DNA of 64,000 bases from Spirochaetes bacterium GWB1_60_80 (GTDB lineage: Bacteria; Spirochaetota; Spirochaetia; Treponematales; UBA12059). The notes under the pieces were generated by a model. That model saw nothing but the letters and a program-made list of their open reading frames with translations, made no database searches and had not been told where the DNA came from. Position 1 is the first letter of the stretch. Every line of letters starts with the position of its first letter. The stretch covers positions 1-64,000 of the forward strand of contig MIAR01000012.1 in assembly GCA_001829185.1 (NCBI GenBank), written 5' to 3'. Positions 18,806-27,739 of the stretch are shown here, in pieces. Position numbers and translations under genes: made by a program.

Positions 18806-19894
18806 TCAGTCGTCGTATTCGATGTCGATGTCGCCAGATAAGGTATTGATGCGCAACTCGACGTCGCCGCCGGAGATTTCGCAGCTGCTGCGCCCGGGGC
18901 GGCTGCGCACCCGACCGTCCGGCACCGAGATGTCGCCGGAGACGGTCACGGCCACCAGGCTCGGCCGATCGTCGCTCGGCAGGTTCACCGAGATGTCGCC
19001 GGAAGCCGTAGATATGACGGCGTCAGCCGTCACCACCTCGAAGGCCGCATCGATGCCACCGGAAGCCGTGACAGCCTTAAGCCCGGCCTGCAGGCCGACC
19101 AGGCTGACGTCGCCCGAAGCGGTCCGGATGGTGGCGTCGCCGATGACGCCCTCCAGATCGATGTCGCCAGAAGCGGTGCTGATGTCGACCAGGCCGGCGG
19201 CGATAGTCAGGTTGACGTCGCCGGACGTACTTTGCACGCGGACGGCGGCGCCTTCGTTAACCTCGCCCTCGACATCGCCGGAAGTGGTCTTGATGACCAG
19301 CTCGACCAGCTCGGGCGGCAGGCTGAACTCGGCTTCGTCGGCATTGGGCCCTAGCTGAATGCAGAGACGGCCACCCGACACCTCCAGCCGAGGGGCGGAG
19401 TCCTCATCCCAGTAGCCGTTAATACGGCAAGCGCAGGCGGCGCCGGGACTGAGGTTGATGTCGGCCGAAACGCCACTAATCTCCAGACGCTGGATGCCGG
19501 CGAATTCTTCCTCGATCTCTTGCTCTTCGCCATCGGTGTAGCGGAAAAACTGCTTAAACAAGCGGAAGCCGCGCGGGCCATCGTCATGGTAGCGCTGGTT
19601 GCCGGAGCGTTCCGCCGAGCCGTCGCTAGGCTTTTCCTGATCACTGCCGCACGTGTCCCCTGGCAGCCGCCCGGCTTGGCCGGCCTGACCGGCACCGGTC
19701 TCGGACCGATACTCGGCGGCAATCACCGACGGATGCGGCAAGCTCTGCAGTATCTCGGCCTCGCCCAGTTCCGGTTTACGGGCCACGGCGTCGTCGATAT
19801 GGCTGGCAAACTCCAACAGCACGTCCTGTGCCTCGTCGGCCGGCAGGAAAGCCAGTTCCCTGGCCAATTCGTCAAGATAATTCTGTCTGGTCAT
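18806..19894 (-). CDS. HAAS-domain protein with DUF4097 beta-helix repeats
   Basis: Protein of 362 residues. The N-terminus (1-65, YLDELARELAFLPADEAQDVLLEF) matches the HAAS/DUF1700 module that partners PadR regulators. A charged linker follows. Residues about 130-362 are a DUF4097-type repeat region, with about ten turns containing T-A-S-G-D or V-S-G-D motifs, expected to fold as a right-handed beta-solenoid. Unlike typical HAAS proteins, no membrane segment or signal peptide is visible, so a cytoplasmic location is inferred. It overlaps padR by four bases (ATGA), so the pair is coupled. Probable role: effector or modulator of the PadR regulator. No enzymatic motif. Confidence 0.8.
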   Translation of the reverse strand: MTRQNYLDELARELAFLPADEAQDVLLEFASHIDDAVARKPELGEAEILQSLPHPSVIAAEYRSETGAGQAGQAGRLPGDTCGSDQEKPSDGSAERSGNQRYHDDGPRGFRLFKQFFRYTDGEEQEIEEEFAGIQRLEISGVSADINLSPGAACACRINGYWDEDSAPRLEVSGGRLCIQLGPNADEAEFSLPPELVELVIKTTSGDVEGEVNEGAAVRVQSTSGDVNLTIAAGLVDISTASGDIDLEGVIGDATIRTASGDVSLVGLQAGLKAVTASGGIDAAFEVVTADAVISTASGDISVNLPSDDRPSLVAVTVSGDISVPDGRVRSRPGRSSCEISGGDVELRINTLSGDIDIEYDD

Positions 19895-20268
19895 GCGTTC
19901 CTCCCCTTGGCGGACAACTGCACGTAGACGTGATGGTCCGCCAGATACAAGCGCTCAATCTGGTCCAGGAAATCAAGGCCAAACAAGCTGAGTGTGTAAT
20001 ACTTGCGCGGGTGGCCTTCTACTGGCGTTTCCCAGGCAGCCAACAGGCTTTTTTCCTTGACTAGCCTAGCCAGCAAGGGATAGAGCGAGCCTTCGCTCAT
20101 GTCCATGCCGATCCGCTGCATCGCTTCCATGATGGCAAAGCCATAGATGCGCCGGTTATTCTGGACGCAGCGCAGGATGCACAGCTCCAGAAAGCCTTTT
20201 CGGCTCTGGCCTCGCCATTTGTCGACGGCTCGAGCCAGATCCTCCGCCGTATACTCCGAGTCTTCCAT
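19891..20268 (-). CDS. PadR-family transcriptional regulator
   Basis: Winged-helix repressor of 125 residues starting at ATG 20268 with AAGGAGG (20273-20279) upstream. The PadR core is clear: ILRCVQNNRRIYGFAIMEAM (helix-turn-helix) and SEGSLYPLLARLVKEKSLL, followed by the wing GHPRKYYTLS. The C-terminal helix mediates dimerisation. PadR proteins usually repress their own operon. A palindrome covers the -10 box upstream, consistent with autoregulation. The ligand is unknown. It is the first gene of a two-gene operon with the HAAS-DUF4097 protein. Confidence 0.92.
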   Translation of the reverse strand: MEDSEYTAEDLARAVDKWRGQSRKGFLELCILRCVQNNRRIYGFAIMEAMQRIGMDMSEGSLYPLLARLVKEKSLLAAWETPVEGHPRKYYTLSLFGLDFLDQIERLYLADHHVYVQLSAKGRNA

Positions 20269-20360
20269 AAGGCCTCCTTGGCAAGCGGCGGGCAGCGCTA
20301 CACTAACGAGCGGCCCGCCTGATTGCAACCTGCCCATGGCTTGGATTGCAATAACAATAG

Positions 20361-20440: not shown

Positions 20441-20470
20441 AAAAAAACACGCAGATCGGACTGCGTGTTT
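20441..20470 (-). terminator. Terminator of the FecR operon
   Basis: On the minus strand AAACACGCAG and CTGCGTGTTT (plus coordinates 20461-20470 and 20445-20454) form a 10-bp stem with a 6-base loop, followed by a T run (20441-20447 as A on the plus strand). Confidence 0.92.
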
Positions 20471-20499
20471 CTCTGACGGCAAACGCCACCTGGTGGTAC

Positions 20500-21219
20500 T
20501 TATTCGATGTCGATAATCAGGGTACCGGTCGGTGCCTCTGGCGGGACGATGGTTCCACCGAAGTTGAAGTTGGTCAGCAGGCCGGCTACCACCGACGCGT
20601 CGACCGAACCGGACAGGTCGGAATTTAAAACTTCCAGCACCAGGTTACCGATATTCGAAAAGCCCGCCCCCTGGGGTACGGCGGCTGGCGTGGCTACCTG
20701 GCCAGTCTCGGCGACATAGGTAAATTCACCAGCGGCGACCAGCCGGGTCTGGGCCAGCGGCGTGCGCAGTTCGACAGCCCCATGCCCCACTAATAGGTTA
20801 ACGCCGTCAAACTGGAAGCCGGTACCGCGCACCGATGCGGTGGCAGTCGGACTGGAGACGCGGAACTCGGTGGTGGTATTGGCCTGCGGGGTAACCTCAG
20901 CCGAAACGCGGCCGGCCAGCAAGAAGAGCTGGGCTTGGTTGCTGCCGGAGGTCTGCACCAACTGTTCGATGGTCAAGCGGGTCACCGGATTGACGGTGAT
21001 GACGGCGTTGGCGACCTGCAGCTTGGCGCTGCTCTTGAATCCGGTCGAAATGACGGTACCGCGCGGCAGGGCATCGCCAACCCGGGCTGGCCGCCAACTG
21101 GCGCCGGGCAGCTGGTATTCCACCCGGCCGGCGATCTCGGTAATGCGCGCTTCCTGGGCTACGGCCAGGGAACAAGCCAAGGCCAGCAGAACCAGGCCAA
21201 GGATCAACTTTCGCTTCAT
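20500..21219 (-). CDS. FecR-domain periplasmic protein
   Basis: Exported protein of 239 residues. A signal peptide (MKRKLILGLVLLALACSLAVA) precedes a FecR-type domain (about 25-165) with GRVEYQLPGASWRPARVGD, LPRGTVISTG, and the typical ASVRGTGFQF motif. The C-terminal 70 residues are unfamiliar. The FecR domain here is not linked to a sigma/anti-sigma pair. In many bacteria such proteins occur beside CHASE2 cyclases, as here. It starts at ATG 21219 after GGAGGAG. It is the last gene of a three-gene operon ending in a strong terminator. A proposed role is an envelope sensor or structural partner. Confidence 0.83.
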   Translation of the reverse strand: MKRKLILGLVLLALACSLAVAQEARITEIAGRVEYQLPGASWRPARVGDALPRGTVISTGFKSSAKLQVANAVITVNPVTRLTIEQLVQTSGSNQAQLFLLAGRVSAEVTPQANTTTEFRVSSPTATASVRGTGFQFDGVNLLVGHGAVELRTPLAQTRLVAAGEFTYVAETGQVATPAAVPQGAGFSNIGNLVLEVLNSDLSGSVDASVVAGLLTNFNFGGTIVPPEAPTGTLIIDIE

Positions 21220-21276
21220 AATCAACTCCTCCGCGCGTCGCCGCGCAACTAGGCTGCTTTCAACAGCTGCTAAGGC

Positions 21277-22530
21277 TTACAAGTCCAGCGCCAGGCCGAA
21301 GGTAGCCTTCAGGCTGGGCAGAGTATCGGTCGGATAGCCATCGACGGTATTCGGCACGAAAATGCCGCCACCCAGGCTGAGGCTCAGGTCACCGGTGGGG
21401 CGGTAACGCAGGTTAAAGCCGCCCTCAAACCCGGTCAGTAGGCTGCTGCCAGTAAAATCAGCCGGCAGCTCGCTACTGCCGCGCAGATACAGGGCGCCGT
21501 TGGCCGCGACAGAAAAGCCTTCCAGCGGGGTCAACGAGGCGTCGAGGCCAGTCATTAGGCTATTCTGGAAGAAGAAGGCGCTATACGACCCCATCATCGA
21601 CTGGCGGATGGGCGTGAAGGCGTCCAGACCACCGGCGAAAAGGCCACCGGACCACTGCACATTCAGGTTCAGGTTGAGGGCGGCCACCTCGGGCACCGCC
21701 AGGCGCAGACGGCCACCGGCGGCCATGGCTACGGAAACGACGTCGTCGACTATCATTTCGGTCACCTGCCAGGCGTTCCAGCGCAATAAGCGGCCGAGAC
21801 GGCCGGCTATGTACGGCTCGGCGTAGAAGGTGTGGGTAGTTTCAGCCCCGCCAGCCAACAGATCCAGCTGGCCCCACAACTCGATACCCGCATCATGGCT
21901 GGGGAAGATTTCAGAGGCGCGAAAGCCGGCGCCGAAAAAGAGGCGCGGCAGGGCGAAATAGGACGACGGGAAATCCGGGTCGGTAGCTGCGGCCTTGTCG
22001 TCGCCACTCAGGCGGTTCTGGTCGTCAGTATCGATCATTACCAGAGCGGTAACCTTTTCCTGCAGCCCCAGATAGCCGCCGAGCAGCTTGATCTGGTTGT
22101 TGCCAAGGGTAAGACTGACCAAGGCGCCATCGTTGAGGCCGGACAGCACGCGGGCGGAAAAATCTTGAACCGGGATGCGCCCCAGCGAGAAGGCCACGGT
22201 ACTATTCTCGCCCAACAGCCTTGGAAACAGGCCGTTAAGGGCGATCATGCCGGCGTCGAAACGATAGGGGCTGATGGCCGGATCGGCAAGCAGGCTGGCG
22301 GAGAACTCGTAGAAGCCGGAAACATAGAGGCTGAGCTCAGCCGACAAGGGGGTGGACAGCCAGAGCACCGCCCGGTCCAGCTGGTTGAGGCTCCACTCCG
22401 TTTCCGGCGCAGGCAGTTCGGTCGAGAAGGCGCTGACGTTGAGCAACTGCAGGCCAAAGTCGGCGGCCGGCAGGGCCAAGGTACAGGCCACCAACAGCAG
22501 GGCCAGACCGAAGATGCGCTTATTATTCAT
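21277..22530 (-). CDS. Predicted outer-membrane beta-barrel protein
   Basis: Exported 417-residue protein. A signal peptide (first about 22 residues, ending LPAA) is followed by alternating hydrophobic/polar strands with aromatic residues, such as LSLYVSGFYEFSASL, and a C-terminal TFGLALDL strand. This suggests a barrel in the outer membrane. The family is not recognised. It overlaps the upstream small gene by eight bases, with GGGAG just before ATG 22530, and lies 57 bases before fecR. Its partners suggest a dedicated envelope complex with the FecR protein and the divergent cyclase. Confidence 0.65.
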   Translation of the reverse strand: MNNKRIFGLALLLVACTLALPAADFGLQLLNVSAFSTELPAPETEWSLNQLDRAVLWLSTPLSAELSLYVSGFYEFSASLLADPAISPYRFDAGMIALNGLFPRLLGENSTVAFSLGRIPVQDFSARVLSGLNDGALVSLTLGNNQIKLLGGYLGLQEKVTALVMIDTDDQNRLSGDDKAAATDPDFPSSYFALPRLFFGAGFRASEIFPSHDAGIELWGQLDLLAGGAETTHTFYAEPYIAGRLGRLLRWNAWQVTEMIVDDVVSVAMAAGGRLRLAVPEVAALNLNLNVQWSGGLFAGGLDAFTPIRQSMMGSYSAFFFQNSLMTGLDASLTPLEGFSVAANGALYLRGSSELPADFTGSSLLTGFEGGFNLRYRPTGDLSLSLGGGIFVPNTVDGYPTDTLPSLKATFGLALDL

Positions 22531-22993
22531 AGGAGACTCCCTGGATGTCGAAGATGCGGCCGAGCAGGCGGATAGCCAGGTTGCCGTTGATGGTATCGGC
22601 CGGGTCGGAACGACCCTGGATGACCATCTTGTAGCGCAGTTCGCGGTAAGCGTAGCGCGCCGACGGGAAAATCGTGTACAGCAGGCCGCCGGGAACGTCG
22701 AAGGCCCGCATCAGGATATAGGCGTACTCGCCGAGGCGGATCGGCGTCGAGGCGTCATTACCGCCCGACGCCCAGCCCAGACTCTCCAGCAAATCGAAGG
22801 AGCGCTGGATATCAGCATCCTCGCTCAAGTTTTCGGACGCCACCAGCACCAGGTAGGCGGCCTGTCCGACACTGATGCTATCCTGCTGCAACAGCTCATC
22901 CATGAACTCATTGGATTGACCAAACACAGCCAGCGGTACAATGGCCAGCACCAGAACCAGAAGTACTTTCCGATAAATACTACTTATACGCAT
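22523..22993 (-). CDS. Small secreted protein of unknown function
   Basis: 156 residues with a signal peptide (VLLVLVLAIVPLAVFG, then QSNEF). The mature part is mostly helical and contains SVGQAAYLVLVASENL and RLGEYAYILMRAFDVPGG, which look like repeated alpha-hairpins. No known domain is recognised. It is the first gene of the operon with the barrel and FecR proteins, starting at ATG 22993 with AAGGA six bases upstream. It is divergent from the cyclase, with 78 bases between the start codons. Comparable short secreted proteins occur beside FecR genes in treponemes (recollection, not verified). Confidence 0.65.
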   Translation of the reverse strand: MRISSIYRKVLLVLVLAIVPLAVFGQSNEFMDELLQQDSISVGQAAYLVLVASENLSEDADIQRSFDLLESLGWASGGNDASTPIRLGEYAYILMRAFDVPGGLLYTIFPSARYAYRELRYKMVIQGRSDPADTINGNLAIRLLGRIFDIQGVSYE

Positions 22994-23016
22994 TGTTAGT
23001 CCTTGAAAAAAGCTTA

Positions 23017-23025
23017 TGGTATAAT
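23017..23025 (+). promoter_or_regulatory. Extended -10 promoter of the cyclase gene
   Basis: TGG directly followed by the consensus TATAAT (23020-23025). No good -35 is seen at the usual distance. Transcription from about 23032 gives a leader of 40 bases containing AGGAG (23060-23064). The same AT-rich 78-base gap must also hold the promoter of the opposing operon. Confidence 0.65.
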
Positions 23026-23071
23026 ATAGTACGAAGTGACCAAAAAATCTGCCACCATCAGGAGTTTTCAG

Positions 23072-25798
23072 ATGAAAAAACTAAAAACCGGCATCAAGCT
23101 GGGCAAGCGCCTGATTTTAATTCCACTGATTACCGGCCTCCTCTTTGCCAGCCTGTACCTGGTGCCCGGCTGGCAGGCCATTGAATACCGCATCTACGAC
23201 TTTTTCCTGGGTCTCAAACCAGCCGTCGTGGAAGACCCCAACCTGGTGCTGCTTAACATCGATGAGAATACCATCGTGAACACCGGCGCCTGGCCGCTGC
23301 CGCGCGGCCTGATCGCCCGCGGCCTGGAGGTGCTGGCCGAGGTCGACGCCCGCTACGTGGTCTTCGATATCGAGTACCTAGAAAACAGCCCGATGAGCGC
23401 CGACCGCCAATACCTGGAAGGCGCCCTGCAATCCGAGTTTCAGACGGCCTTCGGCTTGATCGCCTCGGACTTCGCCGAGTTGTTCAACTCCCTCAACAAC
23501 GGCATGCTCAGCCTGGAGGACGCCAACCAGTACGCCGAATGGCTGGTGGACAGCGTCAACCAGACCCAGACCGACCTGTACGGCAAGACCGGCCGGGTGG
23601 CGGTGGAGAACGATAGCTACCTCGGCCAGGCCATGCGCCTATTCGGCAACGCCTACAGCACCCTGAATATGCAAAAAGAAGATACCGCGAACGTCTACCC
23701 GGAGCGGCAGCAACTAGCCCGGCAACGCTTCGCTTATCAGAAAATCGAAAACCGCGGCATGAGCCCCTCGGAATTCGCCGGCTTCCTAGTGCCGATACCG
23801 GAAATATCGAGCCTGGCCAAGAACGCCGGCTTTACCAATGTGTATATCGACCCGGACGGCGTGCGCCGGCGCATTCGCCTGGTGGACATAATCGAAGACC
23901 AGTATTACCTGCAGCTGGCCACCGCACCCCTCATCGACTGGATGGGCAACCCGGCTATCGTTCTCGACCGCCGCCAAATTACCTTGAAAGGCGTTAACTG
24001 GGCGGGGCGCGTCCAGGATCTCCGCATTCCGCTCGACGCCAACGGCATGATGCTCATCCGCTGGCCCAAGACCGATTTTGACCACAGTTTCCGATCGGTA
24101 TCGTTTTTTGATTTACTGGAATACCGCAATGCCGAAGATAGCCTGTTCAGTGACCTGCGCAAACTGCGCACTAACCAGGTCTGGGGCTGGGGTATCGGCC
24201 TCTCGGCCATCGACAGCTGCATCACCGCCTACAGCGCCATGGACGAGGCCCGCCTGGTCGCCCTGGCCAGCGGCGTAGCTGAAGACCGGGCGGCCTGGCT
24301 GGAACTGAAAGACAGCTTCCGGCAAAGCCTGGCAGATTTTCTAGCTATCGGTTACGGCACCGGCATCCCGCAACAATTGGCCGAATTGGCGGCTACCCAG
24401 GCCGATCCAGCTACCGCCGAGATCGTCCGCAGTACCAGCGCCGAGTTCAGCGTCCTCTACGATCGCGTCGAAGAGCAGGTAACCTTCCTGCAAACCCGGC
24501 TGGCCGAGCTGAAAACCAAGCTAGCCGGCTCCTTCAACGTCATCGGCTGGTCGGGCACGGGCACCACCGATATTGGCGTCAACCCCTTCTTTGAAAAATA
24601 CGTTAACATCGGCACACATACCGCCGTAGTCAACACCATCATCCAGCAGGACTTCCTGCAGGAAGCGCCGCTCTGGTTCTCCGGCTTGTTGTCGCTGGCC
24701 CTGGCCTTCGGCATCGTGCTGGTCATCAGCCGCCTGCAGATGAATCTGCAGATCGTGGTCGGCATAGCGGCAACCGTGGCGGTACTGGTCGGCATTTATC
24801 TGGTGTTCCATTTTACGGGTGTCTACATAGCCCTGTTGTCGCCGGGCTTGGCCACCTTCATCGCCTTTTTGGCCTACACCCTGATATCCTTCCTGATCAG
24901 CGAGCGCGAGAAAAGCTTCCTGCGCAAGGCCTTCAGCACCTACCTGTCGGGCGACATCATCAACGAACTGGTCAACGACCCGGCCATGCTCAAGCTGGGT
25001 GGCCAATCCAAGTACATCACGGCTATGTTTACGGACGTGCGCGGCTTCTCGACCATTTCCGAGGCCATCAGCCCCGAACAGCTGGTGGACCTGCTGAACC
25101 TGTATCTATCCGGCATGAGCGACATCATCCTGGAGCGCCAGGGCACCATCGACAAGTACGAGGGCGACGCCATCATCGCCTTCTTCGGCGCGCCGCTGAC
25201 CGACGAAAAGCACGCCTACAAGGCCTGCGTCTCGGCGCTGCGCATGAAGCAGATCGAGGCCAGCCTGAACGAACGCTTCATGGCCGACAAGATGACGCCA
25301 AACCCGCTGGTGACGCGTATCGGTCTCAACACCGGCGACATGGTGGTGGGCAACATGGGCACCAAAAAAAAGATGAACTACACCATCATGGGCAACGCCG
25401 TCAACCTGGCCGCCCGCCTGGAAGGCGTTAACAAGCAGTACGGCAGCTGGATCCTAGCCACCGACGCCACCCTGCAGGCGGCCGGCCCGGACGTCGTGGC
25501 CCGCGCCCTGGACCGCGTCCGGGTAGTGGGTATCCATACCCCGGTGCAGCTCTGGGAGGTCATGGCGCTGCGCGCCGAGGCCGACCGGGCGATGACCGAG
25601 CTGCTGTCCGGCTTTGCGGCGGCGCACGAACTGTTCGAAGCCCGCCAGTACCCGAAGTCCGAGGCGGCCTTCCAGGAACTGGTGGCCGCCTACCCGAACG
25701 ACGGTCCGTCGACCACCTATCTGAAACGCAGCCAGAACTTCCAGCAGAAGCCGCCGGCCGACAATTGGGACGGCGTCTTCAACCTGACCGAGAAATAG
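23072..25798 (+). CDS. CHASE2-domain adenylate/guanylate cyclase
   Basis: Membrane cyclase of 908 residues. One N-terminal membrane segment (about 14-32) is followed by a large periplasmic CHASE2 sensor domain (LVLLNIDENTI, AWPLPRGLIA, VVFDIEYL, and later GTTDIGVNPF). Three membrane segments follow (about 533-612), then a class III catalytic domain. Asp655 (FTDVRGF) and the Asp in KYEGDAIIAFFGAP are the metal ligands. The Lys of that motif is the adenine selector, and GNAVNLAARLEG supplies the transition-state Asn and Arg. cAMP is the likely product. The C-terminal 80 residues are helical. ATG 23072 with AGGAG is preferred to the upstream GTG at 23036. Confidence 0.92.
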   Translation: MKKLKTGIKLGKRLILIPLITGLLFASLYLVPGWQAIEYRIYDFFLGLKPAVVEDPNLVLLNIDENTIVNTGAWPLPRGLIARGLEVLAEVDARYVVFDIEYLENSPMSADRQYLEGALQSEFQTAFGLIASDFAELFNSLNNGMLSLEDANQYAEWLVDSVNQTQTDLYGKTGRVAVENDSYLGQAMRLFGNAYSTLNMQKEDTANVYPERQQLARQRFAYQKIENRGMSPSEFAGFLVPIPEISSLAKNAGFTNVYIDPDGVRRRIRLVDIIEDQYYLQLATAPLIDWMGNPAIVLDRRQITLKGVNWAGRVQDLRIPLDANGMMLIRWPKTDFDHSFRSVSFFDLLEYRNAEDSLFSDLRKLRTNQVWGWGIGLSAIDSCITAYSAMDEARLVALASGVAEDRAAWLELKDSFRQSLADFLAIGYGTGIPQQLAELAATQADPATAEIVRSTSAEFSVLYDRVEEQVTFLQTRLAELKTKLAGSFNVIGWSGTGTTDIGVNPFFEKYVNIGTHTAVVNTIIQQDFLQEAPLWFSGLLSLALAFGIVLVISRLQMNLQIVVGIAATVAVLVGIYLVFHFTGVYIALLSPGLATFIAFLAYTLISFLISEREKSFLRKAFSTYLSGDIINELVNDPAMLKLGGQSKYITAMFTDVRGFSTISEAISPEQLVDLLNLYLSGMSDIILERQGTIDKYEGDAIIAFFGAPLTDEKHAYKACVSALRMKQIEASLNERFMADKMTPNPLVTRIGLNTGDMVVGNMGTKKKMNYTIMGNAVNLAARLEGVNKQYGSWILATDATLQAAGPDVVARALDRVRVVGIHTPVQLWEVMALRAEADRAMTELLSGFAAAHELFEARQYPKSEAAFQELVAAYPNDGPSTTYLKRSQNFQQKPPADNWDGVFNLTEK

Positions 25799-25801
25799 GT
25801 T

Positions 25802-27739
25802 TCAGGGCACCTGCCAGGCGCCCGGCGTCCAGCTGGCGCCGCGCGGCGTGCCGTGGATGTCGGTCGCGGCCGCCCCGGTCAGCACCTGCCCGGCCGGCCA
25901 GCCATGCTCGGCCGGCGAGCGGTAATCGGGCGCCGCGCCGGGGGCGATAGCCGAAACGGCGTTCTGGCGGGCGATGCTGCCGGCGAAGGCCGCGCCCTCG
26001 GCCGTCACCAGGTTGCCTTCGCCGTTGACGGCGGTGTAGGCGACTCGGCCGTCCACCACGTAGTACAGGGCCGAAGCGCAGCCAATAAAGACGTTATTCT
26101 GCAGCTTGGCCGGGGTGGAAGCGCCGTAGTTGCCGATATAGCCATAGGATTTGCTGACGCCCTGGGCGGTAAGCAGACAATTGACGAGCGCTGGATTGCT
26201 GGCTGAGCTGAAGACGGCGGCGGCTTCCCGGCCGCTACCCCCAACCAGGCTGCAATTCTCCAGCTCGGAGCGGCTGGAATTGTAGAAAGCCACGGCGTAA
26301 CTGGTATTGGCGGCATTGCCAGCGAAAACCGAGCTGGAGGCCTTGATGCGGGCATCGGTCAGCGCGGCGCCGTAACCGCCGACGCCGCCCGAACCGGCCA
26401 AGAGCCAGCTGCTTTCCACCGTGGCCTGAGCCGAGTCGACCGACAGGCCATAGGCCGTGGCGCCTTCGCCGCCGGACAGCCGGCAGGCGCGGAACAGCGG
26501 GCTGGCGTTGGCGGTTACCATCGCGCCGTAGCCATAGCTGCCAAAACCGCCGGCGCTGGCCACCTGGCGAACCAGCGGGGCGGCCCGGTTGGTAATGAAC
26601 AAGCCGACGCTGTACGACGAATCAGTACCGCGCAGGTCGAAGTATTCCAGATAGGCCGCGTTGGTCAGGGCGGCGCCATTGTACTTGAAGACGAAGGCCG
26701 GTTCCTGCTTGGTAGAGCGCGCCGCCTCCTGCCCCCGGACGATGGACAGGCCGTTGGAGCGGGCGACGAAATTGGTCTGCCAGCCGCCGGACAGCGAGAC
26801 CGCGAAATCGATTTCCAGCGAGGCCGTATACATGCCGGCCGCCACCTTAATCAGCGGCAAGTTCTTTTCCTTAGCCGTGGTCAAGGCGGACGCGAGGCTG
26901 CCTAGCGGCGAGCGCGGCGTGCCAACGCCGTTGGCCTCAGCCGCGACGTAGACCTCGTTGATGGCGTAGTCGGCCCCCACCACGGCGGAAATCTTGCCGC
27001 CGGGGACGAAGGCGACGGCCCGCAGCCAACTGGTGGCGGCAATGGCGATCGGCCCATTGTAGCGCTGACCACGGTCGCGGCTGGGCGCGCTGCCGTCCAG
27101 CGTGTAGTTGATGGCGGCTTCGGGCTGAGCCACGCTCAGGCTGACGCTGATGGCGGCGTTGTGGACGCCGCTGGCCTGGCTGAGGCGCGGATCGGGCACC
27201 GGCAGGTTAGCGATGCGCCGGATTTCAGCCTGGCGGGCGGCTTCGGCCTGTCTAGCCGCCTCGGCCAGACGATTGGCAGCGGCGTTGGCTGCCAGATCGG
27301 CCTGATTTTCGGCCGCCGCCGCCGCGATGGCCGCCTGCTGGGCCTCGGTTAGGGGTACGCCCGGCGTGTCGGAACCAGCCGTGGTTGCGGCACCGGCGCT
27401 GCCCTCAAGGGCAGTGCCATCAGCGGCCGTGCCGTCAGCCAGAGTACCGTCCGCCAAGCTGCCGTCAACCAGCGTCCTATAAATCGGTGTACCGTCAGGA
27501 TTGGTACCGATGACCACCAGGTTGGCTGCCCCGCCACCGCTGGCCGCCAAGCCTCCGCTGGCCGCCATGCCGCTGGCAGCGTCCGCACCGGCCGCCGCGT
27601 CATCGCTGGCCTTGCCGGCTTTGGCGCCGCAGGCCAAGAGCGAGCTGGCCAGACCAAGCGCCAGGCCAAGCATCAGGCACCAGGCAGTCAGATTGCGCCG
27701 CTTCCCAGAAAAAAAAGTTGTATTACGCACTACGAGCAT
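25802..27739 (-). CDS. Lipoprotein with CHB_HEX_C domain and right-handed beta-helix
   Basis: 645-residue lipoprotein with a lipobox ending LLAC at about residue 37. It has a long Ala/Gly/Ser/Asp-rich linker (about 38-170), including degenerate LADGT repeats and a helical stretch rich in AEAARQAE. Then comes a chitobiase C-terminal-like domain (INYTLDGSAPSRDRGQRYNGP), and from about residue 260 a beta-helix typical of DUF1565-like surface proteins. GGGGGAC precedes ATG 27739. It ends three bases from the stop of the convergent cyclase gene. Probably a surface or periplasmic lipoprotein. No catalytic residues are recognised. Confidence 0.78.
   Translation of the reverse strand: MLVVRNTTFFSGKRRNLTAWCLMLGLALGLASSLLACGAKAGKASDDAAAGADAASGMAASGGLAASGGGAANLVVIGTNPDGTPIYRTLVDGSLADGTLADGTAADGTALEGSAGAATTAGSDTPGVPLTEAQQAAIAAAAAENQADLAANAAANRLAEAARQAEAARQAEIRRIANLPVPDPRLSQASGVHNAAISVSLSVAQPEAAINYTLDGSAPSRDRGQRYNGPIAIAATSWLRAVAFVPGGKISAVVGADYAINEVYVAAEANGVGTPRSPLGSLASALTTAKEKNLPLIKVAAGMYTASLEIDFAVSLSGGWQTNFVARSNGLSIVRGQEAARSTKQEPAFVFKYNGAALTNAAYLEYFDLRGTDSSYSVGLFITNRAAPLVRQVASAGGFGSYGYGAMVTANASPLFRACRLSGGEGATAYGLSVDSAQATVESSWLLAGSGGVGGYGAALTDARIKASSSVFAGNAANTSYAVAFYNSSRSELENCSLVGGSGREAAAVFSSASNPALVNCLLTAQGVSKSYGYIGNYGASTPAKLQNNVFIGCASALYYVVDGRVAYTAVNGEGNLVTAEGAAFAGSIARQNAVSAIAPGAAPDYRSPAEHGWPAGQVLTGAAATDIHGTPRGASWTPGAWQVP
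27416..27475 (-). repeat. Four degenerate 15-bp in-frame repeats
   Basis: Units at 27416-27430, 27431-27445, 27446-27460 and 27461-27475 encode L/A-A-D-G-T/S pentapeptides in the linker of the beta-helix lipoprotein. Confidence 0.75.

Follow-up and report, generated by a model that had tools for sequence, protein, structure and literature searches.

Conserved linkage of a CHASE2 adenylate cyclase gene with genes for a FecR-domain protein, a predicted SLH-fold protein and a predicted outer-membrane barrel in spirochaetes

CHASE2 sensor domains are widespread, and the stimulus to which they respond has been described as unknown. Little is understood of FecR domains that act outside iron signalling, and to our knowledge no link between the outer-membrane protein OmpM and a cyclase is on record. 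Pairing of FecR with CHASE2 is already known from Campylobacterota and Burkholderia. In Campylobacterota, CHASE2 cyclases share a cluster with a phosphodiesterase, a TPR protein and an envelope protein of the FecR type, which the authors read as one pathway (PMC9239204). In the BiofilmReg operon of Burkholderia, the gene for a protein with LysM and FecR domains lies next to that for a CHASE2 histidine kinase (PMC5192318), and in magnetotactic bacteria mtxA lies upstream of a CHASE2 adenylate cyclase gene (PMC4439547). When MtxA was compared with the FecR profile, residues 25-63 aligned weakly (E=0.14). The Clr/CyaD1 cAMP pathway of Sinorhizobium meliloti includes a cyclase with a CHASE2 part and the FecR-domain protein SMc02177 (PMC5498481). 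OmpM of Veillonella is described as an outer-membrane tether and a nutrient channel and was reported absent from Gracilicutes (PMC10628300), a group that includes the spirochaetes (PMC11784454).

We analysed a 64,000-nt stretch of DNA (the window) from an uncultivated Spirochaetota genome of 3.6 Mb, in which a CHASE2 adenylate cyclase gene lies beside genes for a FecR-domain protein, a small secreted protein and an outer-membrane barrel. The Campylobacterota cluster likewise combines a CHASE2 adenylate cyclase with a FecR-domain envelope protein, but its other partners are the phosphodiesterase and the TPR protein, and the available sections mention neither an SLH-fold protein nor an AlgE/OmpM-like barrel (PMC9239204). 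The Burkholderia operon also places an exported FecR-domain protein with a wall-binding module beside a CHASE2 receptor. There, however, LysM takes the place of SLH, a histidine kinase acting with a response regulator stands in for the cyclase, and there is no barrel (PMC5192318). The mtxA locus resembles the spirochaete genes in that a periplasmic-protein gene is followed by a CHASE2 adenylate cyclase gene, whereas MtxA has TPR and Ig-like parts and neither an SLH protein nor a barrel was reported there (PMC4439547). In S. meliloti, a CHASE2-part cyclase and a FecR-domain protein belong to one cAMP pathway, but the FecR gene is among those that Clr, the cAMP receptor, acts on, and the part of the report available to us does not describe it as adjacent to the cyclase gene (PMC5498481). 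The core common to the phyla is FecR plus CHASE2. What appears to be new is the spirochaete four-gene cassette, of which we found no report in a literature search of partial coverage.

All four genes were found where the sequence-only reading had placed them, as a FecR, barrel and small-protein operon divergent from the CHASE2 cyclase gene over 78 bases. The cyclase (908 aa) is encoded on the plus strand at 23072..25798. Its start is the ATG at 23072, which has AGGAG upstream, and an in-frame GTG at 23036 would give a 920-aa ORF. The operon runs on the minus strand from 22993 to 20500, through the small secreted protein (156 aa with a signal sequence, 22523..22993), the barrel (417 aa, 21277..22530) and the periplasmic FecR-domain protein (239 aa, 20500..21219). 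The small-protein gene runs 8 bases into the barrel gene, the barrel and FecR genes are spaced by 57 bases, and a terminator-like stem (14 pairs, loop of 6, T-rich tail) lies 3' of the FecR gene at 20441..20474 on the minus strand. In the divergent promoter region (22994..23071), a promoter scan found TTGAAA-16-TATAGT at 23003-23030, and the extended -10 TGGTATAAT lies on the plus strand at 23017-23025 within a near-symmetric element. When a list of gaps was compared by eye, the divergent gaps of close relatives carried GTAGTATACTAC or a degenerate form of it, and the window carried GGTATAATATAGTACG. The near-symmetric -10 could serve both strands. No RNA families or tRNAs were found in the window. 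Adjoining the operon at 18806-20337 on the minus strand are overlapping genes for a PadR regulator and then a HAAS/DUF4097 toastrack protein, which were not conserved at linked loci.

The window cyclase matched Pfam CHASE2 at E=3.9e-26 (92.6 bits, cut-off 26.3) and Guanylate_cyc at E=8.2e-20 (71.6 bits, cut-off 21.9). Hydropathy gave a 1+3 topology, with a TM segment near residues 10-28, an outer CHASE2 region and TM segments near 534-552, 561-579 and 583-601. The CHASE2 part would thus lie outside the membrane ahead of three TM helices, as in CHASE2 class III adenylate cyclases. The cyclase domain covers residues 647-789, and its motifs FTDVRGFS, KYEGDAI, YTIMG and VNLAARLE provide the metal-binding, base-selecting and transition-state positions. 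The motif set typical of class III adenylate cyclases is intact, and the protein is predicted to be active. The third CHASE2 cyclase of the genome (L015:6552-8969, G000:C4) belongs to a separate clade of 28 in which FecR is never nearby, and has a gene for a GAF/sigma-54-type regulator in its vicinity.

The FecR protein matched PF04773 (E=2.4e-11, 44.4 bits, cut-off 24) and has a signal peptide and no other TM segment. SVRGT was invariant in an alignment of 25 FecR homologues. As in the pairs described elsewhere, an exported FecR-domain protein is encoded beside a CHASE2 receptor. A different arrangement would be an iron-type system, with FecR as an anti-sigma regulator and the barrel as a FecA-like receptor driving it. 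The two arrangements share the PF04773 domain, and an outer-membrane barrel gene does adjoin FecR. However, the window protein consists of a signal peptide and a FecR domain, with neither a cytoplasmic anti-sigma part nor an internal TM helix, and is therefore not an anti-sigma factor; the operon has no sigma factor, and the barrel resembles 18-strand channels and not TonB-dependent receptors. On this domain make-up, the iron-type system was rejected as extremely improbable.

The AF2 model of the small protein had a pLDDT of 92.9 and a predicted three-repeat SLH fold. Its strong fold matches were solely SLH domains (SpaA and Sap, Z 11.7), and the first non-SLH row was at Z 4.4. None of 26 members of the small-protein family matched Pfam SLH (PF00395), and an hhalign comparison with only three spirochaete SLH sequences was not significant. 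Since sequence comparison was negative, the SLH assignment was made from the predicted fold. The model identifies the small protein for the first time as having a fold of the wall-binding SLH type, with wall binding putative. In several Treponema-type relatives, the small protein is extended at its C-terminus by an OmpA domain (PF00691, E 4e-10 to 1e-20), a family known for peptidoglycan binding. These fusions are consistent with binding of peptidoglycan or a wall polymer by the small protein.

The AF2 model of the barrel had a pLDDT of 87.9 and 18 strands. AlgE was its best fold match (Z 30), followed by OprD-type channels, and OmpM1 was matched at Z 18.4. By sequence, OmpM1 of Veillonella was the top solved structure for the barrel family profile (E=0.0023 over 93 positions). 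Alginate_exp (PF13372) was matched by 5 of 24 barrel homologues (best 4.4e-11) and not by the window barrel itself. On the model, the barrel is newly identified as AlgE/OmpM-like. The small protein and the barrel together resemble OmpM (PMC10628300) in combining an SLH fold with an outer-membrane barrel, as well as in the profile match to OmpM1, but in the window they are encoded by two overlapping genes and AlgE is the better fold match. A single chain of 706 aa with the OmpM layout was found only in one relative (L312:7060-9180), where FecR adjoins it.

These matches bear on the main rival to an envelope-sensing role for the four genes, a transport role of the barrel with cAMP as control. 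The barrel would be a substrate channel resembling AlgE or OprD, either a porin or an exporter of polysaccharide, and the SLH and FecR proteins would hold or gate it, while cAMP would control the transporter or answer the substrate. The locus would then serve nutrient or exopolysaccharide control and not envelope integrity. Such a role would agree with AlgE and OprD-type channels being the best fold matches, with the Alginate_exp homologues and with OmpM itself being both tether and nutrient channel (PMC10628300). On the other hand, the window cassette has no adjoining transport or polysaccharide synthesis genes, triplets of small protein, barrel and FecR found without a cyclase have diverse neighbours, and the fusions involving SLH and OmpA suggest a connection with the wall. 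We consider the transport role rather unlikely. One genome (G034) has four separate triplets (L179, L180, L181 and L182), with GLUG-repeat proteins ahead of two. This suggests an expansion of the exported module.

A second copy of the cassette was found in the window's genome. On contig C32, genes for FecR, the small protein, the barrel and the cyclase lie in this order on one strand; each is homologous to its counterpart in the window, in a rearranged layout. Two of the three CHASE2 genes of the genome adjoin FecR, and both of these loci carry homologues of the same two extra genes. With only 10 FecR and 3 CHASE2 genes in 3.6 Mb, such adjacency excludes chance. A chance neighbourhood was ruled out by this second copy and by linkage in relatives, and the linkage of the four genes is not chance.

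Linkage in relatives was examined around about 100 CHASE2 genes from 59 related genomes, with a tree of 100 cyclases. FecR lay within 4 kb of 30 of the 44 cyclases in the window's clade and 5 of the 6 in the C32 clade (35/50 together, with 15/50 FecR-free within that distance) and of none of the 50 cyclases elsewhere. The 35 include three loci (L105, L110 and L138) where the triplet is absent and short FecR-like proteins were found by the iterated profile only. These were given no weight because Pfam did not confirm FecR in the short proteins. All four genes were together at 31 loci. In a scan with the CHASE2 alignment A4, FecR was in the fetched stretch at 44 of 79 organism-titled cyclase loci, for example in Treponema vincentii and Breznakiella homolactica. 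The locus of the cultivable B. homolactica RmG30 (L249) contains all four genes. A sample independent of the cyclase was drawn through the small protein and gave 39 distinct loci from spirochaetes of other families, orders and classes. The exported triplet was intact at all 39, with a cyclase within about 4.5 kb at 24. The other 15, some of which end at contig ends, had no adjacent cyclase; the triplet can therefore act at a distance or have a job of its own.

The genes also co-occurred at the genome level. The small-protein profile had matches in 36 of the 59 related genomes and, in a phylum-wide draw of 393 genomes, in 169. A scan of genome contigs with the single small protein gave no match. 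A profile of the clade's CHASE2 part matched 38 of the 59, including all 36 with the small protein; of the two others, one is 67%-complete and one has a weak match. The sequence-only reading would have failed had the cyclase and the FecR operon been separated in most relatives that carry either, and by cyclases (35/50), loci (24/39) and genomes (36/36) this was not so. In all four gene trees, the C32 type formed one clade. Pairwise tree distances of the four genes were correlated at 0.66-0.88, against permutation maxima of 0.21-0.45, an agreement that is partly due to shared species descent. Recent common descent of the whole region was ruled out, as the window's flanking genes were mostly absent from 25 linked relatives: genes for PadR, DUF4097, MsrA and DUF4954 were found at none, the AMP-binding gene at 2 and the beta-helix protein gene at 4.

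Gene order differed among the linked loci, which were divergent, convergent or collinear as FecR-small-barrel-cyclase or small-barrel-FecR-cyclase. This bears on another possible explanation, in which the SLH protein, barrel and FecR form a structural module of the outer membrane and wall that is merely co-expressed with the cyclase, with no signal exchanged. The triplets without an adjacent cyclase would fit such a housekeeping role, and the common symmetric -10 element could couple expression alone. However, the linkage persists in collinear copies that lack the divergent promoter, which makes mere co-regulation with no signal less likely. In addition, the small protein and this class of cyclase occur in the same genomes even where their genes are unlinked, and pairs of FecR and a CHASE2 receptor recur in unrelated phyla. 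We therefore regard the housekeeping role as improbable.

Since the four genes are kept together across much of the phylum, they are probably one system that senses the state of the outer envelope. In the arrangement that we propose, the SLH-fold protein at the peptidoglycan and the AlgE/OmpM-like outer-membrane barrel would work as a pair equivalent to OmpM but encoded by two genes, presumably forming a complex where the two are unfused. Periplasmic FecR would link this module to the cyclase in the inner membrane by way of the CHASE2 domain, and we infer physical contact between FecR and CHASE2. A change in the outer module, whether in occupancy, assembly or the spacing of outer membrane and wall, would be the stimulus; the signal would run inward and alter cyclase activity, and cAMP would act on cNMP-binding proteins encoded elsewhere in the genome. 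The pairs of FecR and a CHASE2 receptor known from other phyla, one of which includes a wall-binding LysM domain, support this arrangement (PMC9239204, PMC5192318, PMC4439547). The chances that an SLH-barrel outer module acts through FecR and the CHASE2 cyclase to turn envelope state into cAMP seem to us about even. We put forward more tentatively a split OmpM-like tether between outer membrane and wall in spirochaetes, wired through FecR and CHASE2 to adenylate cyclase, with attachment or spacing read out as cAMP. If this were true, an OmpM-like pair would be placed in Gracilicutes, where OmpM was reported missing. The sequence-only reading, in which three exported proteins present a signal to CHASE2 and cAMP relays it, is partly supported; it did not include the SLH fold, the OmpM/AlgE likeness, the second genomic copy or the published FecR-CHASE2 pairing. 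From the conserved cassette comes a concrete proposal: envelope information would reach CHASE2 through its FecR partners.

The genome has 26 cNMP-binding matches, including CRP-like proteins and a cNMP-GGDEF fusion, so that candidate cAMP receivers exist, with cAMP binding predicted from sequence. The CRP-like genes that the sequence-only reading had suggested seeking in the genome are among them. All 26 are on contigs other than the window's, and its statement that the window encodes no cAMP receptor therefore held. If the proposed arrangement is true, the cassette would be a plausible upstream signal for these many proteins. The fusion of a cNMP-binding domain to a GGDEF diguanylate cyclase (L148, G000:C58, about 1399-2406) is a candidate link from cAMP to c-di-GMP.

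Two further observations were made near cyclase genes. On the strand opposite the window cyclase, a gene for a beta-helix protein with a CHB_HEX_C domain (25802-27739, minus strand) ends 3 bases past it. Similar beta-helix genes were found close to the cassette in L054, L074, L081 and L085, and one adjoins the small-protein gene in L174. The beta-helix/CHB_HEX_C protein is a possible fifth partner in its family. In a 1.14-Mb treponeme-type genome (L173:7220-12565, G032:C1), a class III cyclase gene with HAMP in place of CHASE2 is directly followed by a gene for a 671-aa FecR-domain protein. This possible independent pairing of FecR with a cyclase adjoins a Borrelia_P83-family gene.
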